Numbered from the stretch's first letter, positions 3,471 to 44,736 are shown. The stretch is DNA of 44,736 bases from Candidatus Kuenenia hertensis (GCA_021646465.1 SOET01000035.1:1-44736), one strand, 5' to 3'. A program made the numbers and translations. Notes: generated by a model not told the origin, from the letters alone.

Positions 3471-3722
3471 ATGGGGATAACTATTGCAGAATTAAAAAAA
3501 GAAATTTTGAACGAAATAGACGAATTATCTTATGAAAAGATTAAAGAGGTATTAGACTTTATATGTTTTATAAAGGCTAAAAATGCTATAGATCCTTCAC
3601 AAACATATTTTTGGACAAAACAGTGGCAGTATATGGAAAGAGAAGCAGATATAGACAGAGAAACAGGCAATATAATAGGTGATGGTACAGTAGAAGACCT
3701 TCTCAAAGAGATTAAAGGATGA
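3471..3722 (+). CDS. VapB/DUF2281-like antitoxin candidate
   Basis: An 83-aa protein. Its first half (ELSYEKIKEVLDFICFIKAK) matches the DUF2281-type helical pattern; its second half (FWTKQWQYMEREADIDRETG) resembles the toxin-binding tail of VapB/MazE-type antitoxins, which often carry a WxxxWQxxExEAD pattern. It has a full-consensus ribosome-binding site and its stop overlaps the start of the next gene (ATGA at 3719-3722), the usual arrangement of toxin-antitoxin pairs. The expected partner of such antitoxins is a PIN or RelE toxin, but here it is a nucleotidyltransferase-HEPN protein. The role is inferred from family resemblance and context. Confidence 0.6.
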   Translation: MGITIAELKKEILNEIDELSYEKIKEVLDFICFIKAKNAIDPSQTYFWTKQWQYMEREADIDRETGNIIGDGTVEDLLKEIKG

Positions 3723-4261
3723 AAAAAACAGATTTGTCATTATTGAGTAAACGTCTTGATGAGGAGTACGAGGAAAGGGAGAGGCGGCGTAGAGAAACAC
3801 TAAAAAAAACTATTGAATCATTAAAGACTTATTTTAAGGATAAGCATGTCGGAAAAGTAATTCTTGTTGGTTCTGTTCTTATGGAGGGAAGGTTCTATCC
3901 GTTCTCTGATATCGACGTGGCTGTTGATGGTTTGGAGGAAGATTATTTTAAAACATTGGCGGAAGAGATAGCAAAGACCTTTGAAAATAAGGTAGAGGAT
4001 CCGGCTAAATACCATAGGGAACTTCTAAAGCGTATGTACATGGATATCCCGGGTATAAGGCCAAAATTGCTCTCTCAGGAGAGTTACCGTGTCCTTGATG
4101 AAATAAGGGGGTTTAGGCATATCTTCCGGCATGCTTATGACTATGAGCTTGACCAGGAAAGAGTTGACAACCTTAAGCAAAAGATCATTATGAACTGGGA
4201 TCACATAAAGAAGGATATGCACTGTTTTATGTCCTTCTTACAAGACACCCTGAGGGATTAG
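3719..4261 (+). CDS. Fused MNT nucleotidyltransferase-HEPN protein
   Basis: A 180-aa protein with two halves. Residues 45-88 are a minimal nucleotidyltransferase core with GS at 51-52 and DID at 64-66 (11 residues between, one more than the usual GSX10DXD). Residues 95-180 match the second half of a HepT-like HEPN domain: YHRELLKRM, IRPKLL, then R133-x4-H138-x-Y140, the RX4HXY RNase motif. In HEPN/MNT toxin-antitoxin systems these are normally two proteins of about 140-150 aa each. Here the C-terminal part of MNT and the first HEPN helices seem to be missing, as if an internal deletion joined the two genes in frame. It overlaps the VapB-like gene by ATGA. Confidence 0.65.
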   Translation: MKKTDLSLLSKRLDEEYEERERRRRETLKKTIESLKTYFKDKHVGKVILVGSVLMEGRFYPFSDIDVAVDGLEEDYFKTLAEEIAKTFENKVEDPAKYHRELLKRMYMDIPGIRPKLLSQESYRVLDEIRGFRHIFRHAYDYELDQERVDNLKQKIIMNWDHIKKDMHCFMSFLQDTLRD

Positions 4262-4379
4262 TACTTTACAAAAAATATTTTTACATTTTTGATAAAAATT
4301 GTAGCACCGATCCCTCTGGTAACTCCAAAGACCTGACTGCTGAGAAATTATACATAACGACATAAGTTTATAACTGTCT

Positions 4380-4441
4380 GTCATTCCTGGCTTGACCCGG
4401 AATCCAGCGTTTTTCTGGATTCCCGCTTTCGCGGGAATGAC
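4380..4441. repeat. GTCATTCC...GGAATGAC dispersed palindromic repeat
   Basis: Outer arms GTCATTCC (4380-4387) and GGAATGAC (4434-4441) enclose a second pair GGAATCCAG (4399-4407) / CTGGATTCC (4415-4423) and a short CCCGC/GCGGG hairpin. This is the widespread REP-like palindrome seen in many bacterial genomes. The rest of the 353-base gap 4262-4614 shows no gene, promoter or further structure I can support. Confidence 0.75.
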
Positions 4442-4614
4442 ATACTTGTCCTCGTGAAAACGGGTATTCGTATCTGATTAATGACGCTGTGTATGGAAGC
4501 AAAAATCAAAGATTTTCCGTATATGAAAGTCATTCAGACAGGCCGTAAGGGCAAAATTCGGCAAATAAATTATATACTACAAAACACGAAGTCAGATTTT
4601 ATAATAAATACCGA

Positions 4615-5052
4615 ATGACTATGAAGCGAAGAAACATGAGTGAAACAAGGTTTTTAAAGAAAAACAGAATTGACGAAGAAACAAAGACACAAATACGAGG
4701 GATACTAAAAGAATCTATTTATAGGATAAAAGACATCGTCTTTGCATATTTACACGGGTCTTTCGTGGAAGGGGCCGATTTCAGAGATATAGATATTGCA
4801 CTTTTTGTAGAAGAATCTGTTAATAAATTAGAAACAGAAACTACTCTTTCTTACGAACTTACGGAAAAGACAGGTTATCCTGTCGAAGTAAAAGTAGTAA
4901 ACGATGCGCCCGTTGCATTTCAAATGGCTGTTTTGAGGAAAGGTGTTCTTCTTTTAAGCAGGTCTGAAGATATCAGGACTAACTTTATTGAAAAGATTAG
5001 TAGAAGATACTGTGAGTATGTACACTTTAGAAATATCATATTGGATGCATAA
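4615..5052 (+). CDS. Solo MNT-family nucleotidyltransferase
   Basis: A 145-aa minimal nucleotidyltransferase. The active-site signature is YLHGSFVEGADFRDIDIALF, i.e. GS followed by DID with eight residues between, the shorter form of the GSX10DXD signature. The central EKTGYPVEVKVVND segment fits the third acidic strand, and the C-terminal LRKGVLLLSRSED matches the usual ending of these proteins (ReGv.L..). Two downstream ATGs (for example MSETRF at 4636) could be the true start. Such proteins usually act as the AMP-transferring antitoxin to a HEPN toxin; no HEPN gene follows, so it is an orphan or works with the fused protein upstream. Confidence 0.7.
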   Translation: MTMKRRNMSETRFLKKNRIDEETKTQIRGILKESIYRIKDIVFAYLHGSFVEGADFRDIDIALFVEESVNKLETETTLSYELTEKTGYPVEVKVVNDAPVAFQMAVLRKGVLLLSRSEDIRTNFIEKISRRYCEYVHFRNIILDA

Positions 5053-5184
5053 TAGTGTTTAAAATAAAAATGATCTCATGGAATTTGTAAATCAAATTAC
5101 CGGTTTTATTTCCTCTGTGGAAAGGGCAAAAGAGTGAAAATGGTATCGTTACAGTTTTTTGGAAAAATTTTTTAAAATAAAAAA

Positions 5185-5299
5185 ATTCGTAACAGTTTAG
5201 TATTTTGAAAAATAAATTTAATCTGCTCGCTCCCAAACTCCTGTTTGGGAACAAGCAAGCAGAAACCGCTGGTGTTTCAAAAAGCTAATGTGTTACAAA
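5185..5299. mobile_element. Inverted-repeat element A with internal hairpin
   Basis: A left arm at about 5185-5212 (core GTAACAGTTTAG) and a right arm at 5275-5299, reverse-complementary at about 22 of 28 positions, enclose a hairpin at 5223-5262 whose core is TCCCAAAC/GTTTGGGA with a 4-nt loop. Related arms recur as a pair at 12931-13101 and singly near 16163, so this is a repeated genomic element rather than chance. It lies just ahead of the open tail of a broken gene. The rest of the 5053-5402 gap holds only low-complexity AT sequence. Confidence 0.55.
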
Positions 5300-5406
5300 A
5301 TTCTGCACTGGCTGAAAAGGATACAAACAATTGGGAACGAATTATGGTGGATGATGGTGTATTTTTCTTCAAAAAATACAGTGGAATTAGTCCGAAGATA
5401 CCGTGA
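5300..5406 (+). pseudogene. C-terminal gene stub ahead of the GT2 gene
   Basis: The frame ending with TGA at 5404-5406 is open back through element A and reads ...EKDTNNWERIMVDDGVFFF... without a start codon. Its stop overlaps the GTG start of the GT2 gene (GTGA), as expected of an upstream operon partner that has lost its 5' part. I do not recognise the protein. Confidence 0.35.
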
Positions 5407-6194
5407 AAGTTAGCGTAATTATTCCTTCCTTTAACAGCGCAAAGACCATTGAGGATACTCTTAAAAGCATAATGGGCCAGAACTGGCCTGATATCCAAAT
5501 TATTATACAGGATGGTGGCTCCACAGACAATACCAAAGCCATCGTTACAAAATACCCGACTGCGATATCCGGCTGGCAGTCAGAGCCAGACAACGGCATA
5601 TATGACGCAATGAACAAAGGCATTAAACGTGCAACGGGTGAAATCATTGCCATTCTTAATAGTGATGATGCATGGTTGCCAGGTACACTTGATCGTGTTG
5701 CATCGGCATTTTCACATAACCCCGATGTTGGTATAGTTTCCGGCTCGATTGAAGTGTGGGAAGACTCTCCTGATGGAGCTAAGGTTGTTCTAAAATCGAG
5801 TTTACTGTACCTTCATAAAGGAATGACAGTACAACACCCTGCGACCTTTGTACGGCGCACTGTGTATAAACGTGTCGGACAATTTAATACGTACTACCGT
5901 ATAGGAGCTGATTACGATTTCGTATTGCGATGCCTTCAGGAAAATATTTCCTGGATTATACTCGATAATGTCCTTGCCCGGATGCGGGCAGGGGGCATGG
6001 GGGGGGCGACCTTTACTTTTAATGACTGGATGATCCGGAGATCTTACAAACTTTCTTCAACCTTTAACGAGACATGTATTTGTGCAAACAGCTTTGTAAG
6101 GCATTTAGCCAGGCAGGCAGTTTTAAAAGTTTTTGGGAAGAAGGTTTTATCAACTCTCAGAGATTATTTATGGCAAAAGCGGATATATCGATAA
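5403..6194 (+). CDS. GT2 glycosyltransferase (WcaA-like)
   Basis: A 263-aa family-2 glycosyltransferase starting at GTG 5403. VSVIIPSFNSAKTIEDTL is the first strand and helix, IIQDGGSTDNT carries the nucleotide-binding Asp, NDGIYDAMNKGI-like SEPDNGIYDAMNKG is the typical helix of WcaA-type enzymes, and NSDD is the metal-binding DXD equivalent. QHPATFVRR in the acceptor half is also typical. No membrane segment is seen. It is probably involved in surface polysaccharide or glycan assembly, like its neighbours; donor and acceptor are unknown. Only a gene stub precedes it, so its original operon seems broken. Confidence 0.85.
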   Translation: MKVSVIIPSFNSAKTIEDTLKSIMGQNWPDIQIIIQDGGSTDNTKAIVTKYPTAISGWQSEPDNGIYDAMNKGIKRATGEIIAILNSDDAWLPGTLDRVASAFSHNPDVGIVSGSIEVWEDSPDGAKVVLKSSLLYLHKGMTVQHPATFVRRTVYKRVGQFNTYYRIGADYDFVLRCLQENISWIILDNVLARMRAGGMGGATFTFNDWMIRRSYKLSSTFNETCICANSFVRHLARQAVLKVFGKKVLSTLRDYLWQKRIYR

Positions 6195-32223: not shown

Positions 32224-33312
32224 ATGATGAAATCGTATGTAATGGTTTTGTTTTTGAGCGTATGTTTTTCTTCCGTAACCAGCGGAGATGTAATTGTGTT
32301 GAAAGATTTCAATAAAGAAATTGATTTTAGGGTGCTGGGTGCTACTGATGAATATGTAAGTGTGGAAATACCAAAAAGAGATATGAAATCTTTGAAAATG
32401 CAGTTTTCTCAAAACGATTATTTCTCCGATGTGATTTTTTTGGATAAAGAAGAAATAACTTTGGAGTGTAAAGTTAAAGAGATAAAAAAAGATGAAATAA
32501 TTATATTGATTCCAGCCTTTGCGATATCTTCTATCCAGATGTCATTTAAAGAGAATGGTGAATTGGTGACAGATGAAAAAATGTACAGTTCCAATATGCC
32601 GGAAGTACATAGTAAAAATGGCGAAAAAGATCGAATTCGCGAATATAAAACGCAAAATCAGAGAAATGATATGCAAAAAGAAGGGTCGGGAGAGATTGCA
32701 GATGAGTTAAGAACTGACATTAGCGGTGGACTGAATTCAAAAAAACATTATAAATTTAAAACAAAAAAGGTTTTTAAGGAAGAAAATGTTGGAGCTGAAG
32801 CAGGGGATCGTTTCGATAAAAATGAATTTGCTGATTTTAGGGCAAGTGACGATACTGAGGCTACACGTATGTTGGAAGAAAAGACATTTCGAATCAATGA
32901 AAATAAAGAAGATATTTTGGGGAATGAGGAAGTTTTTGACACTGCGGAAGCACTTGTAGAAGAAGCAACCACCTTACAAGACCCGAATCTTGGCATTGTT
33001 GAAGGGCGAATATTAAAAAGTGGAAAACCAATAAAGGATTGTCTTGTACAATTGCGCAGGCTTGAAAAGAGTGGTTTATTGTTAAAGGAGTATCGTCTGG
33101 TAGAGGGTGCTTTGGAACTTGAAACGGTCACAAACGATGAGGGATATTATCATTTTATGAATGTCTCGCCCGGCGAATATAAATTATATTGGAAGTCACT
33201 AGAGGAAACAACATGGGTAAGGCGTTTTAAGATGGAGCCTGACGTTATTGTAGAATCGGGGAAAACAGTGAAACCGAGAGATATTGAAATTTTAAAAAGA
33301 ACATTAAACTGA
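32224..33312 (+). CDS. Exported protein with C-terminal carboxypeptidase-regulatory-like domain
   Basis: A 362-aa protein with a signal peptide (MMKSYVMVLFLSVCFSSVTSG). Residues 22-110 are two beta-rich repeats (VIVLKDFNKEIDFRVLG..., VIFLDKEEITLECKVKEI...) like the short SH3-like modules of exported planctomycete proteins. A long charged, probably disordered middle (120-255) follows, then a beta-sandwich at 257-355 of the CarboxypepD_reg type (GIVEGRILKSGKPIKDCLVQ, TNDEGYYHFMNVSPGEYKLY). The final domain is usually a binding module. Function unknown. About 440 AT-rich bases follow before the respiratory operon. Confidence 0.65.
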   Translation: MMKSYVMVLFLSVCFSSVTSGDVIVLKDFNKEIDFRVLGATDEYVSVEIPKRDMKSLKMQFSQNDYFSDVIFLDKEEITLECKVKEIKKDEIIILIPAFAISSIQMSFKENGELVTDEKMYSSNMPEVHSKNGEKDRIREYKTQNQRNDMQKEGSGEIADELRTDISGGLNSKKHYKFKTKKVFKEENVGAEAGDRFDKNEFADFRASDDTEATRMLEEKTFRINENKEDILGNEEVFDTAEALVEEATTLQDPNLGIVEGRILKSGKPIKDCLVQLRRLEKSGLLLKEYRLVEGALELETVTNDEGYYHFMNVSPGEYKLYWKSLEETTWVRRFKMEPDVIVESGKTVKPRDIEILKRTLN

Positions 33313-33601: not shown

Positions 33602-33630
33602 TTGACAATTTAATTTAATGAAAGTATTAT
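33602..33630 (+). promoter_or_regulatory. Sigma70 promoter of the respiratory operon
   Basis: TTGACA (33602-33607), 17 bp, TATTAT (33625-33630), about 138 bp before the first gene of the operon. Only one base of the two hexamers departs from consensus. The rest of the 33313-33767 gap is very AT-rich, with poly-A/T runs but no gene or terminator I can support. Confidence 0.65.
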
Positions 33631-33767
33631 AGCCGACCGTTCAATCATAATAAGTATAGTTAATAGTTTTAAGTATTCTTAATATTCATCAATGTGATTG
33701 CGGATGTGTCTCTAAATTAAGAATAATTCTTGAATTAGGAAATTTCAGACGAAGTATGGAGGGTATG

Positions 33768-34511
33768 ATGAAAAGTTTAAATATTGTTGGTTTGATGGGA
33801 GGTCTCGTGCTGAGTTTGGTGTGTGCGAGCCAGGCAGCAATGGCAAAGGGGAAGGCCCCGGTTTATAACGTGGTTGAGGTTAAAAACGGCGGGACAATTG
33901 TGGGAACCGTGAAGTTTGAAGGAAATGTCCCTAAAGCTAAGATGTTAAAAATAGATAAAGATGAGCAGACATGTGGCCATGGCCAGATGGCTTCTGAGGA
34001 GTTGGTGATTAATCCTGATAATATGGGTGTCAAGTATGCAGTTGTATCGCTGGATGACATTGCAGAGGGAAAGGCGATGGATACTGCGCCAGTTACGCTA
34101 GACCAGAAAGGTTGTATGTTTGAACCTCATGTTGTTGCTCTTTGTGCTGGTACTGAAGTGAATTTATTGAACAGCGACAACATTATGCACAATCTCCATT
34201 CCTGGTCGATAAGGAATCCTGCCTTTAATGAGGGGGTTTCTGGCAATGGGAGTATGGTGAAAAAGTTTGATATTCCGGAAATGGTAAAAATAACGTGTGA
34301 TGTCCATAAGTGGATGAGTTCCTACCTCGTGGTGAAGGGGAATCCTTACTTTGCGGTAACGGATGCAGACGGGAAGTTCAAGATGGATAATGTACCGGCT
34401 GGTAAATACGCGATATCGGTCTGGCAGGAGAAATTGGGCAAGAGAAAAGGTGAAGTTACCGTAGCTGCTGGTGGGGAAGCAGTTGTGGATTTTGTTTATG
34501 CGAAAAAATAA
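33768..34511 (+). CDS. Exported cupredoxin-like protein
   Basis: A 247-aa protein from ATG 33768 (GGAGGG 33758-33763; ATGs at 33756 and 33765 are too close). A signal peptide ends near ASQAAMA. GTIVGTVKFEGNVPKAK opens a beta domain, and a cupredoxin-like fold follows with MHNLHSWS and TCDVHKWM, giving likely type-1 copper ligands His, C177, H180 and M183. The CX2HX2M spacing is shorter than in plastocyanin. A carboxypeptidase-regulatory-like end (DADGKFKMDNVPAGKYAISV) completes it. It is the first gene of the operon, so a soluble periplasmic or anammoxosomal electron carrier or a copper donor to the membrane complex is likely. Confidence 0.78.
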   Translation: MKSLNIVGLMGGLVLSLVCASQAAMAKGKAPVYNVVEVKNGGTIVGTVKFEGNVPKAKMLKIDKDEQTCGHGQMASEELVINPDNMGVKYAVVSLDDIAEGKAMDTAPVTLDQKGCMFEPHVVALCAGTEVNLLNSDNIMHNLHSWSIRNPAFNEGVSGNGSMVKKFDIPEMVKITCDVHKWMSSYLVVKGNPYFAVTDADGKFKMDNVPAGKYAISVWQEKLGKRKGEVTVAAGGEAVVDFVYAKK

Positions 34512-34565
34512 GTGTAATGATTTTTATGGTTTGTGTAACTTACTTGTGAAAAGGCGTACCATATA

Positions 34566-36668
34566 ATGAATATTTCTAAGTTATTGTCAAAGTTAGTAAA
34601 ACAAAAAAGCATTTTTTTTATTTTAGTTGTTTTTGCTTTAGGTGCGGTTTTTTCTCTTTCCTGGCAAGGTGGAGCGTTGCGCTCTGCAGTGCATGCCGAA
34701 GAGGCTGGAGTTGAATTGCCTGAATTCGAGGGTGAGGGTAAATCATCCGGAGAGCAACAAACCGCTGAGGGTGTCGCAGAAGGAGAGGTGCCGCCTGAGG
34801 AAGAGGAAGAAGGGGAACTGGAGCCGGTTCAATACCGTACATTTTTTGGGTTAGATTCGCGTGTTGTTGTGTGGATTGTATCTGAATTGCATTTGATGTT
34901 TGCGGCATTTGTGCTTGGCGTGCCGATATTTGCAGTTATCGTTGAAATCGTAGGGTTTAAGGGTGGGGATATAAAGTATGATAAGATGGCGAAGGAATTT
35001 ACCAAGTTGCTGTCTGCTGCGTTTGCAACAACAGCTTCGCTGGGTGGTTTGCTCGCTTTCTGTTTATTTGGATTGTATCCTGAGTTCATGGGTCACTTGA
35101 CAAATGTGTTTGCCCCGACGATGTATGTTTATGCACTTTTGTTTTTTGGTGAAGCCTTTACGCTGTATGGCTACTATTATTCCTGGGATATTCTTAAGGG
35201 GACGTCGGTTAAGAAATGGAGTCACATTTCTTTGGGTGTGCTGCTGAATCTCTTTGGTACCGCTCTTATGTTTTTAACTAATTCATGGGCGACATATATG
35301 ATGAGCCCGGCAGGCGTTAGCATGAAGACAGGGAGGCTTTTAAGTTTAAGTGAAGCATTTTATAATGAGTTGTGGATGCCTGTCAATATTCATCGTTTAA
35401 TTGCAAATGTTTGTTTTGGAGGTTTTATTGTTGGGGCGTATGCGGCAGTTAAATTTCTCGGCTCCAAAACCAAAGAGGAACGGGCTCATTATGACTGGAT
35501 GGGTTATGTTGGTAACTTTATTGGCATAGGCGCTTTAATTCCCTTGCCGTTTGCAGGATACTGGCTGGGCCGCGAGGTTTATAGTGCAAGTCCGGTCATG
35601 GGGAACATCATGATGGGTGGAGCTTTTTCCTGGACATTTATAATTCAGGCGATTCTTATCGGTATGTTGTTTATAGGCGCCAATTACTACCTCTGGTTGG
35701 GTATGGGGAGGATTAAAGGATCTGAACGGTATACGGGATACATTAAATACCTTAATGTTATCATTTTTATGTGTTTTGCTGTTTGGCTCACACCGCACAA
35801 CTTACCTCTGAGCGGCGAGGAGAGGGCGATGATTGGTGAGCAGTATCATCCTTTCTCTAAGTATTTTGGCGTTATGGCGGCCAAGAATGCAGTGGTTAAC
35901 CTTATCATTCTGTCTACATTCTTTTCATTCCTTATATATAGGCGAAGCAACAAAGGGGAGACGGTGAGATTCTCTGAGCAGGGGAAGGCGGGGAAGATTG
36001 GTATTTTGTCCGGCTTGGGATTTTGTCTGCTGATGCTTATCTCCTATGCAATTTCGTTGAATTTTGTTGAATTGGACGCACAGATTAAAGGATACGTAAA
36101 ACCGTTGATATTTGCTTTGTATATCCAATCGTTAGCCGTTTGTTTTGCCGCATTTTTGACGTTTAAAGATAAGGGAAAACTCGCACAGTTTATTCTGTTT
36201 GGTGTTACGGCGTGTATTGCGGTTTTGTACTTTTGGTTTTACGGTTTTCAGGTTATGCAGAAGGCAAATTTGGTGTTAAGATACTTATCGGTAACCCAGG
36301 TGTCTATTGTGATGAGTTGTCTGATTATGAATGCTGTTATCGATATTTTTGTGTTCCGTAAAGCTAAGGTTGTCGGAGATATTGTGTGGGGCAAGATGCC
36401 TGTGAGGTCGCAGTATGCATTGCTTCTGCTATGTATCGTAATTGTAATTTTGATGGGGCTTATGGGATTTATTCGTTCGGGCTTGCGTATGGATTGGCAC
36501 GTGTATGGTCTTTTGCAGGATACTTCTCAGTGGACGTATACGCCAACTCTTTCGTTTATGGGAAGGGTTGTTGGTTTGATCGTGGCTCTGTTCCTTGGAT
36601 TAGTGTCGTTTGTGTTCTGGTTAGCAAACCTGGGAGAAAAAAAAGTAAAAACTGAGGCGGAAGCATAG
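34566..36668 (+). CDS. CydA-like bd-type oxidase-related membrane subunit
   Basis: A 700-aa polytopic protein. A signal-anchor and an acidic Glu/Pro-rich linker (about 40-85) precede a CydA-like core: SELHLMFAAFVLG (H109, in the position of the first heme-ligand His), FFGEAFTLYGYYYSWD, TNSWATYMMSPAGV, and NIHRLIANVCFGG (H276, like H186 of CydA). The region that holds the b558 Met ligand in CydA seems to read FIIQAILIG, with no obvious Met. Some 230 residues with extra helices follow where CydA ends. No CydB is encoded. Related bd-like subunits linked to cytochromes c are known in nitrogen-cycle bacteria such as Nitrospira. Oxygen or NO chemistry is inference. Confidence 0.75.
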   Translation: MNISKLLSKLVKQKSIFFILVVFALGAVFSLSWQGGALRSAVHAEEAGVELPEFEGEGKSSGEQQTAEGVAEGEVPPEEEEEGELEPVQYRTFFGLDSRVVVWIVSELHLMFAAFVLGVPIFAVIVEIVGFKGGDIKYDKMAKEFTKLLSAAFATTASLGGLLAFCLFGLYPEFMGHLTNVFAPTMYVYALLFFGEAFTLYGYYYSWDILKGTSVKKWSHISLGVLLNLFGTALMFLTNSWATYMMSPAGVSMKTGRLLSLSEAFYNELWMPVNIHRLIANVCFGGFIVGAYAAVKFLGSKTKEERAHYDWMGYVGNFIGIGALIPLPFAGYWLGREVYSASPVMGNIMMGGAFSWTFIIQAILIGMLFIGANYYLWLGMGRIKGSERYTGYIKYLNVIIFMCFAVWLTPHNLPLSGEERAMIGEQYHPFSKYFGVMAAKNAVVNLIILSTFFSFLIYRRSNKGETVRFSEQGKAGKIGILSGLGFCLLMLISYAISLNFVELDAQIKGYVKPLIFALYIQSLAVCFAAFLTFKDKGKLAQFILFGVTACIAVLYFWFYGFQVMQKANLVLRYLSVTQVSIVMSCLIMNAVIDIFVFRKAKVVGDIVWGKMPVRSQYALLLLCIVIVILMGLMGFIRSGLRMDWHVYGLLQDTSQWTYTPTLSFMGRVVGLIVALFLGLVSFVFWLANLGEKKVKTEAEA

Positions 36669-36802
36669 CGGGGTATTTTTGGATCGATAGTTAATGTATT
36701 TATTTATTTGATAGCCTTGGTAGTTGACTCATTATGATAAATAATGATTGTGTTGATAAATTTTTAAGATCATGGTGGTAAGAAGAAGGCAAAAGAAGGC
36801 TT

Positions 36803-37753
36803 ATGAATAAGACGATGTTAAAAATTGTAGCGTTTGGAGTTGCTGTCATTGGATTTTATATGTACATCACTGTCTATGTGACAGGTTTGTCCGGTACGGG
36901 CGGAGGAGAGTCTGCGGGTGGTGTTACCCCTGAAGCAGGAGAGCAGATTTTCTGGGGTGATGGGCAGTGTAGTACCTGTCATAAAATTGGATCTAGTGGT
37001 AGTGCCACAAGGGGGCCAGATCAGGAGGGTTTGGCGGAAAGGGCAGAGGAGAGAGCGAAAACCCTTGGTTTGTCTAGCGGTTTGGATTATCTGGTTGAAT
37101 CTATAGTTGACCCTGATAAATATGTGGTGGAAGGATATGATAAGATCATGCCAAAGGTTTATGATCCGCCTATTATGCTTTCGCGTGAAAAAATATTGGC
37201 TGTTATTGCATATTTGCAAACCTTGGGTGGAGAGCCGGATATAGATTCCATTATGAAATTTAAGGATAAGATACCGGAGGCTTCAAAGAAAAAGGTAAAA
37301 CCGTGGGTTTCACCTATGGAAGTTACAGCAGAAGAAGGCGAACAGGTATTTTATGATGAATCGCTTGATGTTACCTGTGGTAAATGCCATATGGTAAAAG
37401 GTCGGGGGACGAAAGTTGGGCCGGAGCTTACCGGTATTGGAGCAATTCAAACTCCGGAATATTTTGTTGAATCAATTTTGAATCCGAGTGCAGTTATCGT
37501 GAAAGGTTACGAGACCGTCTTTGTGATAACTGTTGATGGCATACCGTATAACGGGTTAATAAAAAGTGATACGGAAGAAGAGCTTACACTGATTGTAGAG
37601 GAAAGCGGTACTATGGAAGAGGTGGTTATTCCAAAAGATGAGATAGAAGCAATGAAGAAGCAGGAGGTCTCGATTATGCCTGGTAATATAAGCGAATTGT
37701 TGAGTGTGCGGCAATTTTATGCAGTAATCGAATTTTTGAGAAGTTTAAAATAG
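36803..37753 (+). CDS. Membrane-anchored diheme cytochrome c
   Basis: A 316-aa protein with an uncleaved-looking N-terminal helix (MLKIVAFGVAVIGFYMYIT) and two class-I c domains. The first has CSTCH at 56-60 and the second CGKCH at 192-196; distal Met candidates are in DKIMPKVYDPP and the VSIMPGN region near the C-terminus. ILAVIAYLQTLGG and FYAVIEFLRSLK are the closing helices of each domain. ESIVDPDKYVVEGY and ESILNPSAVIVKGYETV are the repeated segments typical of this cytochrome group. It follows the CydA-like gene by 134 bp and probably docks on it. Confidence 0.88.
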   Translation: MNKTMLKIVAFGVAVIGFYMYITVYVTGLSGTGGGESAGGVTPEAGEQIFWGDGQCSTCHKIGSSGSATRGPDQEGLAERAEERAKTLGLSSGLDYLVESIVDPDKYVVEGYDKIMPKVYDPPIMLSREKILAVIAYLQTLGGEPDIDSIMKFKDKIPEASKKKVKPWVSPMEVTAEEGEQVFYDESLDVTCGKCHMVKGRGTKVGPELTGIGAIQTPEYFVESILNPSAVIVKGYETVFVITVDGIPYNGLIKSDTEEELTLIVEESGTMEEVVIPKDEIEAMKKQEVSIMPGNISELLSVRQFYAVIEFLRSLK

Positions 37754-37802
37754 GTCTTGATGAGGATGGTTAGGGCGATGTTAAAGTTAGGAGTGTTTAT
37801 TA

Positions 37803-38573
37803 ATGGGGAATAAGCGAAGTCCATATTTAATGTTTTGGGTTGTTGCGGCAGTCATATTTTTATTTTTCTTCTTAAAATATGTATCTCCAAGGGTATTTCA
37901 GGTACTAATGGGGAAGGGGCACCCTATGCCTACCCCAAGTACACTGATGACGTGGTATATAATTATGGGGGTTTTGGCAGGGTTGGTATATGCTACGACA
38001 AGTAATCAAAAATTTGTCGATTTTTTAGGGTTTTTATTGCCTGGTCAGGGCCCGATTCTTAAGTTATTCTTTCAGAAAATATTTCTTATTGCATTTCCGC
38101 TTGTTGTTGGTTGGTTTGTGTATTCATACTCTTTGCCTGGTGCAGCTTCGCCGGTTGAACTGAGAATTCAACATCCCACGTTACCTCAGAAATATGAGAA
38201 GCTGGAAAATCCTTTCAGAGAGAAAGATGCAGATACCCAAAGGCGGTGTATTGAGGAAGGAAAGGTGCTTTTTCAGACGTACTGCCGTCCTTGCCATGGT
38301 TCCAAAGCGGATGGTAACGGGCCTTTTGCGAATTCATTCCGGCTTAGGCCAATTAATTTTCAGGATCCGGGAACAATTGCAACGGTAGTTGATAACTATC
38401 TCTTTTGGAGAATTAAGGAAGGCGGGCCTGGTCTTCCTTCTGAATCGACCCCATGGGATTCTGCAATGCCTGCGTGGGAAGGTGATTTGGAAGATGAACA
38501 GATGTGGAAGATTATCATGGGCGAATATGATACTGCCGGTGTGATGCCTCGGCAAAGAGAAAAAACAGAGTAG
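37803..38573 (+). CDS. Monoheme cytochrome c with three membrane helices
   Basis: A 256-aa protein. Three hydrophobic segments near 8-30 (YLMFWVVAAVIFLFFFLKYV), 48-65 and 88-108 anchor it; then a single class-I c domain with CRPCH at 161-165, a GNGPFANSFRLRPINF loop typical of cytochromes near DMSOR-like or alternative complex III systems, and SAMPAW as the Met-ligand segment. The tail VMPRQREKTE is polar. AGGAG lies about 10 nt before the ATG. It is the third membrane component of the operon. Confidence 0.87.
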   Translation: MGNKRSPYLMFWVVAAVIFLFFFLKYVSPRVFQVLMGKGHPMPTPSTLMTWYIIMGVLAGLVYATTSNQKFVDFLGFLLPGQGPILKLFFQKIFLIAFPLVVGWFVYSYSLPGAASPVELRIQHPTLPQKYEKLENPFREKDADTQRRCIEEGKVLFQTYCRPCHGSKADGNGPFANSFRLRPINFQDPGTIATVVDNYLFWRIKEGGPGLPSESTPWDSAMPAWEGDLEDEQMWKIIMGEYDTAGVMPRQREKTE

Positions 38574-38649
38574 CGGGCTTCTTGTTTATAGTAGTTGTTT
38601 TATCGGGATTTAAAAGTTTTGAGATTATGTTAATTTTAATGAAGAGCTA

Positions 38650-40260
38650 GTGAATACAATGATAAAACTGTTTAAAAACAAAGTAATTAATTTTAGCTTG
38701 ATTGTTTTCGGTGTTCTTGCGTTTTACAAGATAGAAGTGGCAAAAGCGCAAGCATCACATATGTTCAGAACTTACAAGCGGGAGGTACCTCAGAAATTGC
38801 CTGAAAACCAAAATGCGATTGCAGAGGGGAAAAAGGTTTACGAGAAGAGGTGCTGGTATTGCCATGGTATCACTGGTGGAGGAAATGGGCCTGCTGCAAA
38901 GACTATGTTTCCGAAACCTCGTAATTTTACTCGAAATGAGTTTAAAGTAAGATCCACCCCTTTCGGCTCAGTACCAACGGATGAAGATCTTTTTCGAATA
39001 ATTACAAGTGGTATCGAAGGGACTGCGATGCCTTTCTGGAGTACAATAAGCGAAACGGAAAGGTGGCAGGTACTATATTACATTAAAACACTTAATGAAC
39101 AGTTCAAAAAAGAAACCTCTCCTGAGGTTCTGACTGTAGGAAATGTCATTTCTACTCAGGAAAGCATAGAAAAAGGCCACGAATTATTTAAAGAAATGAA
39201 ATGTTATAATTGTCATGGAGAAGACGGCAGGGGCAACGGGCCTCTTACTGTTGCTTTGCAAACAGAATGGAATATGCCTTATCGTGCGAGGGATTTAACG
39301 AAAGCGTGGAATTTTAAGGGGGGAAATACGGCGGGAGATATTTATCGCACCATTTCCACGGGATTTAATGAAACTCCAATGGGTTCATATCGGGAGAAAC
39401 TTAGTGATGAGGAGCGATGGAGCCTTGCCCATTACGTGGAGAGCCTGGCAAATAAAATGGCTTCTGATGTTGTGGTAAAGGTAAAGCTTTTGGAAGGTGC
39501 GGAAATGCCAGAGGGCCCTCTGGGTGAAGCTTGGGGATTGGCAACGCCAATGGAGATTCCACTGGCAGGGCAAATTGTTGCTCATCCGCGGTTATGGGAG
39601 CCATCTATTGATGCCGTTATGATTCGCGGGTTATATAACGATAATGAAATCGCTTTTCTTATCGAGTGGGACGATCGGACGAATAAGCAGGAAGAAGTAT
39701 TCAGGGACACCGTTGCGTTGCAATTTCCGGCAAAAATACCGGAATCCTTAAAAAAACCTTATTTTGGGATGGGTGATTCCGGTGGTATGGTAAATTTGTG
39801 GCAATGGAAAGCGTATTGGAATGAAGGTTTTGGTTCTGCTATAGAGGCACCTGAGAGTGAGCCTGGTGAGATTGTTGAATTAAATGCAAAAGGATTTAAG
39901 AAAATTTCAGTGCAGTCGCCGGAAAGCCAGAATGTTGAAGGTGCTGGAATTTATAATAACGGACGTTGGAGAGTAATGTTTAAAAGGCCTTTGAAAACGG
40001 AAGATGAGAAAAAGGATATCCAGTTTGAGATAGGCAAGTTGATACCAATAGCATTTGCTGCATGGGATGGTTCGAATAGTGATGTCGGGAGCCAAAAATC
40101 TGTATCTGCCTGGTATTATATATTACTCGAGAAGCCAATGCCTAAAACGGTATTTGTCTATGTGTTAATTGCGGTTGTTATGGGGGCGAGTGTAGAGCTC
40201 TGGTTCCTTGCTCGTTTGAGAAGGTTTCCTCCTAAGTTAGAAGAAGATGATCAAGAATAA
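38650..40260 (+). CDS. Diheme c protein fused to a type II DMSOR gamma-like heme b domain
   Basis: A 536-aa protein starting at GTG 38650 or ATG 38659, with a signal peptide ending near AKAQA. Two c domains carry CWYCH (68-72) and CYNCH (185-189), with PKPRNFT and RARDLT loops alike. Residues about 265-500 match the heme-b gamma subunit of type II DMSO reductases (EB_dh-like): NEIAFLIEWDDRT, DTVALQFPA, GDSGGMVNLWQWKAYW and PIAFAAWDGSNSDVGSQKSV, the region that holds the Met/Lys heme ligands in EbdC. A C-terminal helix (VFVYVLIAVVMGASVELWFL) anchors it. No molybdenum subunit is encoded beside it, so the gamma domain has been recruited to another complex. Confidence 0.82.
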   Translation: MNTMIKLFKNKVINFSLIVFGVLAFYKIEVAKAQASHMFRTYKREVPQKLPENQNAIAEGKKVYEKRCWYCHGITGGGNGPAAKTMFPKPRNFTRNEFKVRSTPFGSVPTDEDLFRIITSGIEGTAMPFWSTISETERWQVLYYIKTLNEQFKKETSPEVLTVGNVISTQESIEKGHELFKEMKCYNCHGEDGRGNGPLTVALQTEWNMPYRARDLTKAWNFKGGNTAGDIYRTISTGFNETPMGSYREKLSDEERWSLAHYVESLANKMASDVVVKVKLLEGAEMPEGPLGEAWGLATPMEIPLAGQIVAHPRLWEPSIDAVMIRGLYNDNEIAFLIEWDDRTNKQEEVFRDTVALQFPAKIPESLKKPYFGMGDSGGMVNLWQWKAYWNEGFGSAIEAPESEPGEIVELNAKGFKKISVQSPESQNVEGAGIYNNGRWRVMFKRPLKTEDEKKDIQFEIGKLIPIAFAAWDGSNSDVGSQKSVSAWYYILLEKPMPKTVFVYVLIAVVMGASVELWFLARLRRFPPKLEEDDQE

Positions 40261-40275
40261 TATCAAGGAGCTTTT

Positions 40276-41763
40276 ATGCAGTTAAAGTTTATATCAAGGC
40301 TATATGCAAGATTAATATTGTTGGCAATGGTGATTTGTTTGGCATCGTTTGCTCATTACCGAGAGGTTTCTGCACAAGAAGGAAGCATAGATCCAATGTA
40401 TTTGGAAATAGACAAAAAATACCAGATACCTGAAGGTTGGTCTGTACTGCCTTTAGAATTAGAGGATCCATATAAACGGATTAAAAACGGGCCGATACTT
40501 ACAAATGTTATTCACAAAGCGAATGTAGAATGGATTTCTAAATGGGTGGCTAACCCTAAAGCGGTAGTCCCGAATGCCAAAATGCCTGATCTTGGCTTGG
40601 AGTTTGACGAGATTAAGGCTGTGATTGCATATTTGGGTAGTATCGCAGATGATGGGATTTCAAAGGTCCAATGGGATGATTATTTGCTAAAATCCGAAGA
40701 TGATATGACAGACGAAGAATATGATAACATGGATCAAGTATATCAGATGGGAAAAGGGGTATGGAGCCGTGCACGCTGTACCATATGTCATCCTGTTAAG
40801 GGGCTTGGTGGAAATGTTGGAGTCGGGCCTGACTTAGGAAGAATTGTTACCAAAATTAACAGGGACTGGCTGCATGGATGGCTTACGAATACAAAAGAGC
40901 ATTTTCCGGATACAATGATGGCGCAGTTCCGATTCTCCGATGAAGAAGTGCGCGGGTTGGTCGAATACATTATGCGGGATACTCAGTTTATGCCTGAGGA
41001 AGAAGATGAAGAGGAGGAAGGTGCCGCACCGAAAGCTGCTGAAGAGCCAGAAGTTTTGACACAAGCTGAATATGACAGTAGTAAAGGGGATGATGCACTT
41101 ATTTTAAAAGGCAAGAGTATCATAGAAAATGCACGTTGTTTTGTTTGCCATGATATCAAAGGTTTTGATGAATTGATGCCTGTTGTAAAAAGAGACAGAG
41201 AGGGATTAGAAGGGTTTGAAAAGGTGTTGTATGATATCAGGTGTTTGACATGTCATACCATACAGGAAAAAGGTGGCACTTATGCACCAAACATTACCGA
41301 AGTAGGCACAAAGATAAAGATGGATTGGGAAAAGGACTTTTTGAAGGCTCCTGATATTATTCGCCCTCTGAGTCAGCAAATGCCTAAATTTAACCTGACG
41401 GAAGAGGATGCTTCTTTTGCGACAGGATTTATGGAGAAGTATCTTGTAAATAATGAACTTCCTTCAGGTGTTTTTGAGGACGAGAAACCTTCTGAGGAAA
41501 TAGTAGAAGCAGGGAAGGTACTGTTCTATAGTAAAGGTTGTAATGCATGTCATGCTGATGGTGTAAAAGGTGGTGGTGTAGTAGGGCCGAATCTTGGTAC
41601 CGTAGGTGATCGATTACAACCAGCATATATGTTTCACCACTTAAAAAATCCGACAGTGGTAAATCCTCGGGCAATTGAGCCGAATTATGGTTTTTCTGAT
41701 CAGGAAATTAAGATGTTGGTTGGATTCTTGGTTGATCACGTCAAGGGAAAAGAGGGGAATTAA
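40276..41763 (+). CDS. Tetraheme cytochrome c with an extra heme-less domain
   Basis: A 495-aa exported protein; AAGGAG lies 6 nt before the ATG, and a signal peptide ends near REVSAQ. Four sites are seen: CTICH (168-172), CFVCH (288-292), CLTCH (323-327) and CNACH (422-426). Residues about 65-120 (HKANVEWISKWVANPKAVVP, AKMPDL, EIKAVIAYL) look like the second half of another c domain without CXXCH. An acidic linker (PEEEDEEEEG) splits the protein. The domain ends SDEEVRGLVEYIM and SDQEIKMLVGFLV are typical closing helices. Multi-heme arrays of this kind serve as electron wires. Confidence 0.85.
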   Translation: MQLKFISRLYARLILLAMVICLASFAHYREVSAQEGSIDPMYLEIDKKYQIPEGWSVLPLELEDPYKRIKNGPILTNVIHKANVEWISKWVANPKAVVPNAKMPDLGLEFDEIKAVIAYLGSIADDGISKVQWDDYLLKSEDDMTDEEYDNMDQVYQMGKGVWSRARCTICHPVKGLGGNVGVGPDLGRIVTKINRDWLHGWLTNTKEHFPDTMMAQFRFSDEEVRGLVEYIMRDTQFMPEEEDEEEEGAAPKAAEEPEVLTQAEYDSSKGDDALILKGKSIIENARCFVCHDIKGFDELMPVVKRDREGLEGFEKVLYDIRCLTCHTIQEKGGTYAPNITEVGTKIKMDWEKDFLKAPDIIRPLSQQMPKFNLTEEDASFATGFMEKYLVNNELPSGVFEDEKPSEEIVEAGKVLFYSKGCNACHADGVKGGGVVGPNLGTVGDRLQPAYMFHHLKNPTVVNPRAIEPNYGFSDQEIKMLVGFLVDHVKGKEGN

Positions 41764-41765
41764 CA

Positions 41766-42332
41766 ATGAGTCATTTTTCGTTTTCTAAAGGAAAGTTTTT
41801 TATTATTCCGATATTTGTCTTAAATTTGGCGGGTGGTGTTGGTTTTGCGAAAGAATTGATAACTTCTCCGAGAGATTCCGAATTTTTGATTTCCGCAAAA
41901 ACATCATTTGAATACTATTGTTCACCGTGTCATGGAAAAGACGGTGACGGAAGAGGTACTTTTTATACGATTGATTTAAACCCAAAACCAAGGGATTTTA
42001 CGGACGCGAAGTATATGGCAACGAGATCGGAATCGGATTTAACACAGTCAATTACCGGAGGAACGGCATCGATTGGAAAGTCAAATCTTTGCCCGCCTTG
42101 GGGGAACGTTTTTACAGAGGAAAGAATCAAAGAGCTGGTTGCCTATATCAAAGGTCTTTCTGTTGAAGAAACAACACAAGAAGCCGTTGCAGAGAAAGAG
42201 TCTGTTGTCGAGGAAGAAAAATCTCCTGGTTTTAAGTCTGCACTACGATGGTTGTTCATTGCGGTTATTACCGTGGCTTTGGCAGGCGGTGCAATTAGTG
42301 AATGGAAGAAGTTGAAAAGTGAATCCGCATAA
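41766..42332 (+). CDS. Tail-anchored monoheme cytochrome c
   Basis: A 188-aa protein starting 2 nt after the tetraheme gene. A signal peptide (FFIIPIFVLNLAGGVGFA) is followed by one c domain with CSPCH at 52-56, GRGTFYTIDLNPKPRDFTDA resembling the c domains of the 536-aa protein, and a C-terminal helix (ALRWLFIAVITVALAGGAI) anchoring it. The acidic linker before the helix would let the heme domain swing, as in other tethered cytochromes. No clear MP motif is present; NLCPPWG may replace the Met-ligand loop. Confidence 0.85.
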   Translation: MSHFSFSKGKFFIIPIFVLNLAGGVGFAKELITSPRDSEFLISAKTSFEYYCSPCHGKDGDGRGTFYTIDLNPKPRDFTDAKYMATRSESDLTQSITGGTASIGKSNLCPPWGNVFTEERIKELVAYIKGLSVEETTQEAVAEKESVVEEEKSPGFKSALRWLFIAVITVALAGGAISEWKKLKSESA

Positions 42333-42373
42333 ATTCTTATAATTTTAGAGTTACCTTAGTGAAAAGTATAGCT

Positions 42374-43702
42374 ATGTATAAAAAAATATTAATACCGATA
42401 GATAATTCGAATTATTCGAACTATTGTATCGATCTTGGAATCGCGATTTCGGCTAAATATGGTTCTCTGCTTGTTGGGTGTCATGTTTACGATGCGGCGT
42501 TGCATCAGAAGAGGTTTCGCGATATGGAAGAAGGACTACCGGAAAAGTATCAGGAAGCGAAAGAGTTGCAACGACAACGCGACTTGCATACTTCACTTAT
42601 TAATCAAGGTTTAAAAATGATTTCTGAGTCGTACCTTGATGTTTTTAAAGATAAGTGCGTAAGTGCAAATGTTAAACATGATGTAGTTTTGCTCGAAGGT
42701 AAAAATTATTATGAAATAATTAAGGAAACGCAGCGTGGCGGTTACGATTTGGTCATAATTGGTGCTTTGGGTCTTGCTTCTGTTAACGAAAATCTGATAG
42801 GCAGTGTTTGCGAACGTGTTGTCAGGCGCATAAAAACGGATGTTATTGTAGTTAAGAAAAGTGGCTTAGGAGAAAGGATCGTCGTAGCAGTTGATGGAAG
42901 TCTGCAATCTTTGGAAGGGTTAAAATCTGCAATTTCGTTTGCAAGGTCGTTTAATAAAAAACTTAATGCGGTATCGATATATGATCCTCATTACCACCGG
43001 GTGGCATTTGAAAGTATTGCGAAAGTGCTCTCGGAAGAAGCAGGGAAAATATTTAGATTTAAGGAGCAGGAAACTCTTCATGAAGAGATCATAGATAAAG
43101 GACTTGCGAAAATTTACCAAAATCATCTAGATAGTGCATGTAATATTGCTAAAAAAGAAGGTGTAGAGATGTTCTCTGTATTATTAGATGGAAAGCCTTT
43201 TGATCAGGTGTTACGTTATTTAAAAAAATGTCCCCATTCGTTACTTGTTCTGGGAAGAACAGGAGTACACAATACGAATGGTCTGGATTTGGGGAGCACC
43301 ACTGAAAACCTATTGAGGCTGGCCCCTTGCAATGTAATGTTAACTGGTGGCAATATATCAACAGAGGTAGGGTCCTCGGCTCTTACGGATATTTCTTCTA
43401 AAAAAATAATTGATGACGCAAAAGAACGGGTTAATTCAAAATACGGAGAGGATGCATTGGATACTCCTGGTACTAATCGGAAGGAGTATGTGGAAAATGA
43501 TACTTCCGAAAAACTACTGCCTTTAATTTGGTCGAATGAGGCGCGTGAGCAGACCGAACGTATTCCTTCTTTTATCAGAGGTGTGGTGAGGAAAAGAATA
43601 GAAAAATATGCCCGGGAGAATGGCTATAGGGAAATTACTGAAGAAATAGTAAACGAGGTCAAAACTCAATATATGGGGAAGGATCTAACCCATACTCATT
43701 AA
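42374..43702 (+). CDS. Tandem UspA protein with PCP_red-like C-terminal domain
   Basis: A 442-aa cytoplasmic protein from ATG 42374 (MYKKILIPIDNSNYS); a GTG at 42359 is possible. Two universal stress domains each keep the ATP-binding G-x2-G-x9-G-S signature: GALGLASVNENLIGS and GRTGVHNTNGLDLGS. The last 60 residues (LIWSNEAREQTERIPSFIRG, KRIEKYARENGYREITEEIV) match the PCP_red domain first seen in protochlorophyllide reductase subunit B. It starts about 40 nt after the last cytochrome, so it is expressed with the complex and may couple it to energy state or help assembly. Confidence 0.8.
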   Translation: MYKKILIPIDNSNYSNYCIDLGIAISAKYGSLLVGCHVYDAALHQKRFRDMEEGLPEKYQEAKELQRQRDLHTSLINQGLKMISESYLDVFKDKCVSANVKHDVVLLEGKNYYEIIKETQRGGYDLVIIGALGLASVNENLIGSVCERVVRRIKTDVIVVKKSGLGERIVVAVDGSLQSLEGLKSAISFARSFNKKLNAVSIYDPHYHRVAFESIAKVLSEEAGKIFRFKEQETLHEEIIDKGLAKIYQNHLDSACNIAKKEGVEMFSVLLDGKPFDQVLRYLKKCPHSLLVLGRTGVHNTNGLDLGSTTENLLRLAPCNVMLTGGNISTEVGSSALTDISSKKIIDDAKERVNSKYGEDALDTPGTNRKEYVENDTSEKLLPLIWSNEAREQTERIPSFIRGVVRKRIEKYARENGYREITEEIVNEVKTQYMGKDLTHTH

Positions 43703-44600: not shown

Positions 44601-44736
44601 ATGGAAAAGATTTTTCGCTTATTTAGAGGTTGTTGTATAGCCCTCCTTGGATTTTTGTTTTTGAGTGCAACACTATGTGTTGCAGAGGAGGCAGAAGGAG
44701 TAAAAGGTATGGCGGAGGAAGAATTTACGCCAACGA
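44601..44736 (+). CDS. Exported protein, 5' end only
   Basis: ATG 44601 follows GGGAGGAGAGGG and opens a frame that runs off the window end after 45 codons. It encodes a signal peptide (MEKIFRLFRGCCIALLGFLF, then LSATLCVAEE) and an acidic mature start (AEGVKGMAEEEFTPT). Nothing of the mature domain is visible, so the function is unknown; its position behind the cytochrome operon makes another redox or periplasmic protein plausible. Confidence 0.7.
   Translation, partial: MEKIFRLFRGCCIALLGFLFLSATLCVAEEAEGVKGMAEEEFTPT

Follow-up and report, generated by a model that had tools for sequence, protein, structure and literature searches.

The stretch analysed here (the window), 44,736 nucleotides of Candidatus Kuenenia hertensis DNA, constitutes contig C26 in a 4.17-Mb genome that belongs to the Brocadiaceae, an anammox family. 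It carries eight open reading frames, g1 to g8, on the plus strand at 33756–43702, with intergenic gaps of 2–134 bp; no tRNA was found in the window. The eight co-directional genes of the initial annotation are thus recovered, together with its ten CXXCH sites in five cytochrome c proteins (2+1+2+4+1 over g3–g7). Its limits for the cluster, 33602–43702, do not hold, as the first gene begins at 33756 and nxrC begins at 44601, beyond that end. The genes are:

33756–34511, plus strand: g1, cupredoxin; ortholog of kustd1713 (blue copper protein)
34566–36668, plus strand: g2, CydA-like (bd-like) subunit of 700 aa; ortholog of kustd1712
36803–37753, plus strand: g3, membrane-anchored diheme cytochrome c; ortholog of Kustd1711
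37803–38573, plus strand: g4, membrane monoheme cytochrome c; ortholog of kustd1710
38650–40260, plus strand: g5, diheme c with a heme-b (EB_dh/NxrC-like) domain and a C-terminal transmembrane segment, an "alternative NxrC"; ortholog of kustd1709
40276–41763, plus strand: g6, tetraheme cytochrome c with four CXXCH and Cytochrom_C/CBB3 domains; ortholog of kustd1708
41766–42332, plus strand: g7, monoheme cytochrome c with one CXXCH (PF13442) and a C-terminal transmembrane segment; ortholog of kustd1707
42359–43702, plus strand: g8, Usp-Usp-PCP_red protein (PF00582 twice, PF08369 4e-15); ortholog of kustd1706
44601–44736, plus strand: 5′ end of nxrC (NXR gamma subunit), MEKIFRLFRGCCIALLGFLFLSATLCVAEEAEGVKGMAEEEFTPT, set against the NxrC start of locus L124; cut at the contig end

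Membership in the anammox nxr cluster

The order cupredoxin, cydA-like, diheme, monoheme, diheme (alternative NxrC), tetraheme, monoheme and uspA is that of the anammox nxr accessory genes. In K. stuttgartiensis, kustd1713 is listed as conserved hypothetical, 1712 as cydA, 1711 as diheme, 1710 as monoheme, 1709 as diheme, 1708 as tetraheme, 1707 as monoheme and 1706 as uspA, and nxrC is 1704 (PMC6423088). The eight genes are almost certainly kustd1713–kustd1706, which make up the accessory half of the nxr cluster of 15 genes (kustd1699–1713) already published. Gene order, domains and heme content are the same, nxrC follows, and g3 matches Kustd1711 over its full length (PDB 7zs0; phmmer E 1.8e-189 over residues 1–316). 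Because of this gene-for-gene match the cluster is one already described. The initial annotation was right about the fold, and its c-type donors are likely; it overlooked that the genes belong to the published nxr cluster. Of the two outcomes named in advance as refuting it, genes that do not co-occur in other genomes and a 700-aa protein with another fold, neither was obtained. As far as we could search, what is new here are the gene fusions, the partners unrelated to nitrite, the argument from a single paralog and the link between PCP_red and the heme pathway.

The adjacency of nxrC, nxrB, the chaperone gene and nxrA can be followed in the window only to the start of nxrC. The last 136 bases (44601–44736) encode the NxrC N-terminus, 0.9 kb downstream of g8, and no NXR-T-like reading frame was seen between g8 and nxrC in the window. 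In contrast to the K. stuttgartiensis cluster, this one is cut short inside nxrC by the end of the contig, and NxrA is encoded twice elsewhere in the genome, on contigs C36 and C85, each of which starts with a TorD-like gene. In a single-contig relative of the same genus (G001, 4,406,153 bp), the eight genes lead on to an NXR-T-like cytochrome, NxrC, NxrB, a TorD-like chaperone and NxrA. The cluster is contiguous in L124, with the order NxrC-NxrB-TorD-NxrA.

The first 830 bases of the two NxrA-bearing contigs (L133 and L134) encode an identical TorD-like N-terminal peptide, QFNLISRWFMVVNN. This shared start points to a duplicated NXR region, a repeat that breaks the assembly. Contig C36 also holds a paralogous cupredoxin and diheme cytochrome followed by an octaheme HAO-like protein (L134 14519–17818); this diheme cytochrome shows 42% identity to the diheme half of g5. 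Upstream of the cluster, window 32224–33312 encodes a protein of 362 aa that has a regulatory-like domain and is found in synteny in most of the Brocadiaceae genomes examined.

The CydA-like subunit and its cytochrome partners

The g2 protein matches PF01654 on its N-terminal half (4e-21) and is the sole PF01654 protein in the genome. CydB (PF02322) was not found anywhere in this genome, in agreement with the description of g2 as a subunit without CydB. An AlphaFold2 model of g2 was built from a 55-row alignment of the window and fetched loci (pLDDT 86.1, pTM 0.84). Compared with ten solved CydA chains, the model gives Z of 33–36 over about 350 residues, and the next best structure, 6btm_F, gives 23.4. 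The 700-residue protein therefore models as a CydA fold and not as something else. A likeness to ActF/ActC (Z about 19–23) was not counted as kinship; it may reflect a common four-helix-bundle arrangement.

Residues H109, E196, H276, R641 and W644 of g2 align with H19, E107, H186, R448 and W451 of CydA. The heme ligands H19 and H186 are kept, with g2 H109 and H276 conserved at 98–100%. The fold and these five positions are shared with the CydAB of E. coli and Geobacillus, but the differences are substantial. The equivalent of E99 is an invariant tyrosine, Y189. No acidic residue is found in the aligned g2 helix 613–640 for E445, the heme b595 ligand (E. coli numbering), in a C-terminal part where the alignment to CydA is weak outside R448/W451. 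The quinol residues K252 and E257 are not aligned, and helices stand in the place of the Q-loop. The extra helices of the g2 family hold many invariant residues.

In a 65-row tree the anammox proteins belong to a 36-row clade (clade A; 100/100), apart from canonical CydA and from shorter second-copy paralogs (clade B). Of the 24 rows of clade B, 20 have a Trp aligned with W441, which clade A lacks; the alignment of this stretch to canonical CydA contains an insertion and is less secure. A single g2 paralog is present in every one of the 32 other Brocadiaceae genomes searched, and in two genomes the copy is interrupted by contig ends.

It is hardly credible that g2 is the subunit of a canonical cytochrome bd quinol oxidase from which CydB was lost. 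The PF01654 match and the CydA fold would be expected of such a protein, but the quinol residues and E445 are gone, its clade lies far from canonical CydA, and dedicated c-type partners are kept across phyla. Canonical CydAB identity is ruled out by the absence of CydB and by the tree placement.

The partners of g2 are copper and c-type heme proteins, and domain searches matched cytochrome c domains in g3–g7. In g1, Pfam matched only a C-terminal regulatory-like domain; the protein is called a cupredoxin, as it had been initially, because H145, C181, H184 and M187, the type-1 copper set, are kept in all 76 homologs. Kustd1711, the ortholog of g3, has a crystal structure and a potential of about +350 mV, close to that of the nitrite/nitrate couple (PMC11791136). 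The g4 protein has its CXXCH at residue 161, and H124 and M222 are conserved in 97 homologs. The g5 protein matches PF09459 (1.4e-28, 101 bits against a cut-off of 33), which bears out a type II DMSOR gamma-like heme b domain, and TIGR03477 at 1e-31 and 109 bits, below the cut-off of 170. Its gamma half finds NXR-C (7b04_C, 1.3e-20), and its diheme half finds 6h5l_B (2.5e-53), which we take to be the small protein that pairs with an octaheme HAO-like one. His/Met heme ligand sets are present in g3 and g5, and the distal ligands M127 and M244 of g5 are invariant.

Conservation, fusions and neighbours of the module

The five-gene set of cupredoxin, CydA-like, diheme, monoheme and NxrC-like proteins (the module) was followed in 80 loci kept from at least 472 related stretches in a scan of genome contigs. 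It occurs in at least 12 phyla. The phyla with the module include Planctomycetota, Nitrospirota, Nitrospinota, Pseudomonadota, Gemmatimonadota, Rokubacteria, Poribacteria, KSB1, Myxococcota, Chloroflexota, Acidobacteriota, Actinomycetota, Calditrichota and SAR324, so that the same gene order exists in anammox bacteria and well beyond them. The clusters of Nitrospira (bd-like_3 and alt_NxrC_2) and Nitrospina share with the window a bd-like protein of about 14 helices without the quinol residues, two cytochromes c, and an alternative NxrC with two hemes and a transmembrane helix (PMC6606698, PMC3578206, PMC8026999). Nitrospira has four bd-like paralogs, whereas the Brocadiaceae have one, plus extra tetraheme and monoheme genes.

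Homologs of g3, g4 and g5 follow g2 in this order in 58 of the 61 fetched loci with enough sequence, so the grouping is not due to chance. Of the 70 loci with enough room for it, 49 have a g1 homolog at most 1.2 kb upstream of g2. In four genomes (L043, L104, L113 and L115) the bd-like protein and the diheme cytochrome, homologs of g2 and g3, are fused in frame. L113 also encodes one 758-aa protein (3719–5992) that joins the membrane monoheme c to the NxrC-like diheme protein (g4+g5), with three CXXCH. The L043 fusion, which comes from Scalindua and shares its record with L116, gives a model with a CydA fold (Z 32–35) plus a Kustd1711 fold (Z 30), the Kustd1711-like part showing 66% identity over 278 residues. 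The 5′ end of this reading frame is at a contig edge; the remaining fusions are independent of it.

The fusions and the conserved order support a physical complex, and g2–g5 probably form one membrane complex. In K. stuttgartiensis the kustd1705–1712 proteins are found together in the membrane fraction (84–99.5%), whereas cupredoxins, among which kustd1713 is named blue copper, are mostly in the cytosolic fraction (PMC11897245). The g8 protein, which has neither an export signal nor a heme motif, is presumed cytoplasmic. The earlier proposal of one complex of all eight proteins is therefore best kept for g2–g5.

NxrA was searched for in 57 module-bearing genomes, many of which are incomplete metagenome-assembled genomes. 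Near-full NxrA at 60% identity or more is present in 12, three more have one at 41–43%, and 42 gave short or low-scoring matches only. Canonical CydA is present in 4 of the 57 and heme-copper oxidases in 47. The neighbours of the module in the 80 loci include an arsenite-oxidase-type large subunit (21), NxrB (10), cytochrome b (7) and ActA/ActB (3). Three of the arsenite-oxidase-type examples are above the TIGR02693 cut-off, with a Rieske subunit above that of TIGR02694 and MauG-type peroxidases alongside. These neighbours and the NxrA counts show that the module is not specific to nitrite oxidation; we rejected such specificity since 42 of the 57 genomes, many of them incomplete, showed no NxrA-like protein beyond generic matches.

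The arsenite-oxidase-type subunit, Rieske protein and MauG-type peroxidases lie directly upstream of the module at L069 4425–7127, L106 255–4634 and L058 7149–9815, a group from Pseudomonadota, SAR324 and Rokubacteria. In L058 both the arsenite-oxidase-type enzyme and NXR surround one module. In Pseudomonadota the arsenite-oxidase-type gene is separated from the module by a gene for a HEAT-repeat protein of about 740 aa (L069 7249–9474 and 15 more loci). A literature search found nothing on iodate reductase together with bd-like proteins. In L103, L109 and L110, from Acidobacteriota, the module comes after ActA/ActB-like genes. No ActC or ActD lies in L110 between ActB and the monoheme gene preceding the CydA-like gene; the CydA-like protein may thus replace the NrfD-type subunit.

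The last of the eight genes, correctly described at the outset as encoding a UspA-PCP_red protein, belongs to a small set in this genome:

Window 42359–43702, plus strand: Usp protein with PCP_red (g8)
L145 4888–6780, minus strand: NirJ2/AhbD-like radical SAM protein with two PCP_red
L146 2929–4855, plus strand: NIR_SIR/ferredoxin protein with PCP_red

Directly downstream of the NIR_SIR/ferredoxin gene are those for AhbA and AhbB, two siroheme decarboxylases that score above curated cut-offs. In about 20 other loci the module has radical SAM proteins of the NirJ2/AhbD-like kind nearby, some of which carry PCP_red. PCP_red (PF08369) is present in 37 of 37 module-bearing genomes and in 0 of 5 genomes of the same order that lack the module, although these genomes are one correlated sample, not a set of independent trials, and g8 itself gives the match in some of them. 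Among 14 control genomes it was found in one cyanobacterium only. Because the other PCP_red proteins sit in heme-biosynthesis contexts, we propose a tetrapyrrole-related role for g8, possibly as a heme-handling or assembly factor. This link offers an initial clue to what the Usp-like gene does in the nxr cluster.

Proposed electron path and alternative explanations

The best overall explanation of the cluster is an NXR-linked membrane complex fed by cytochrome c or cupredoxin and probably exchanging electrons with quinone, to which we give a probability of about 0.5. We infer the path and its direction as follows. Electrons at about +0.4 V would leave NXR in the anammoxosome, and NxrC and c hemes or the cupredoxin would pass them to putative b hemes of the CydA-like subunit. 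The cupredoxin and the tetraheme and monoheme cytochromes would be soluble carriers. The g2–g5 complex would consist of the CydA-fold subunit, the +350 mV diheme c, the membrane monoheme c and the membrane-anchored NxrC-like diheme/heme-b protein. In anammox bacteria the path would end in exchange with the membrane quinone pool, uphill and driven by the proton motive force. Reverse transport, one of the roles offered by the initial annotation, may thus be what the complex carries out. Donors of the c-type or copper kind rather than quinol, as the initial annotation held, are likely because the quinol-binding residues are absent and the fusions physically link c-type subunits. Quinone as the endpoint in anammox is less secure, and we rate it at somewhat below even odds.

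Several points weigh against quinone exchange. No quinone site was identified in g2, where helices replace the canonical Q-loop. In solved CydA the hemes are near the periplasmic face, a position that does not obviously drive transmembrane transfer uphill. Where a bc complex or ActAB is the neighbour, a quinone-linked role would be partly redundant. In aerobic Nitrospirota and Nitrospinota, OR-N has been proposed as an O2 reductase that oxidises cytochrome c (PMC10839748, PMC12342949).

The complex could accordingly be an OR-N-type cytochrome c:O2 (or NO) oxidoreductase, for detoxification in anammox and respiration in its relatives. OR-N members of the bd superfamily (Murali et al. 2021, cited in PMC10839748) are CydA homologs without a quinol site encoded with cytochrome c subunits, and g2 shares these features. 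It has the CydA fold with the equivalents of H19, E107, H186, R448 and W451, the literature for Nitrospirales and Nitrospinota gives OR-N this role (PMC10839748, PMC12342949), and every donor next to the module either has a high potential or reduces cytochrome c. Ten of the 57 module-bearing genomes, many of them incomplete, show no heme-copper oxidase match; the other 47 have such oxidases as well. However, the module is universal in a group of obligate anaerobes, and neither E445 nor E99 is conserved. The OR-N oxidases are proposed to be a pair of CydA paralogs, CydAA′ (PMC10839748), whereas no second paralog was found in the window's genome, and the single Brocadiaceae protein belongs to the clade without the W441-aligned Trp. 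O2 uptake by Scalindua is ascribed to a cbb3 oxidase (PMC13253579). When NO replaces nitrite in an NO-fed reactor, the cluster genes fall together with nxrABC (PMC6423088). O2 reduction in anammox is thus unlikely, since the single paralog of the Brocadiaceae is without the quinol site and the E445 ligand, and the O2 or NO reduction first suggested for this organism is disfavoured. We consider the oxidoreductase an improbable explanation overall.

The cluster might instead be a membrane anchor or electron relay that docks NXR and links NXR, cytochromes and nitrite reductase, with no redox reaction at the CydA-like subunit. The NxrC-like domain of g5, the membrane association of NXR and its cluster (PMC11897245) and the altered heme ligands of g2 would fit this role, which we hold to be a minor but real contender. 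Against it, the H19/H186 pair and the many invariant residues of the extra helices imply that a heme function is retained, and most module-bearing genomes have no NXR. An endpoint in anammox other than quinone, a relay or O2/NO has only a slight chance.

Beyond the proposed quinone-exchanging complex of the Brocadiaceae, we suggest, tentatively, that the module is a general membrane electron-transfer machine whose donor can be swapped, with its own tetrapyrrole-linked maturation proteins, and that in the Brocadiaceae its one oxygen-reductase-type subunit went from reducing O2 to exchanging electrons with quinone in an anaerobic pathway. If this is true, the module would plug into NXR, arsenite-oxidase/iodate-reductase-type enzymes, bc complexes or ActAB, and its maturation proteins would be the Usp-PCP_red and the NirJ2/AhbD-like radical SAM-PCP_red proteins.

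It is a standing question how anammox bacteria and nitrite oxidisers lift the +0.4 V electrons of nitrite toward CO2 fixation or dispose of them. The conserved complex is the obvious candidate for handling these nitrite-derived electrons. With the fusions, the service to arsenite-oxidase-type enzymes and a single paralog without the oxidase ligand, the question of oxidase versus quinone exchange becomes directly testable.

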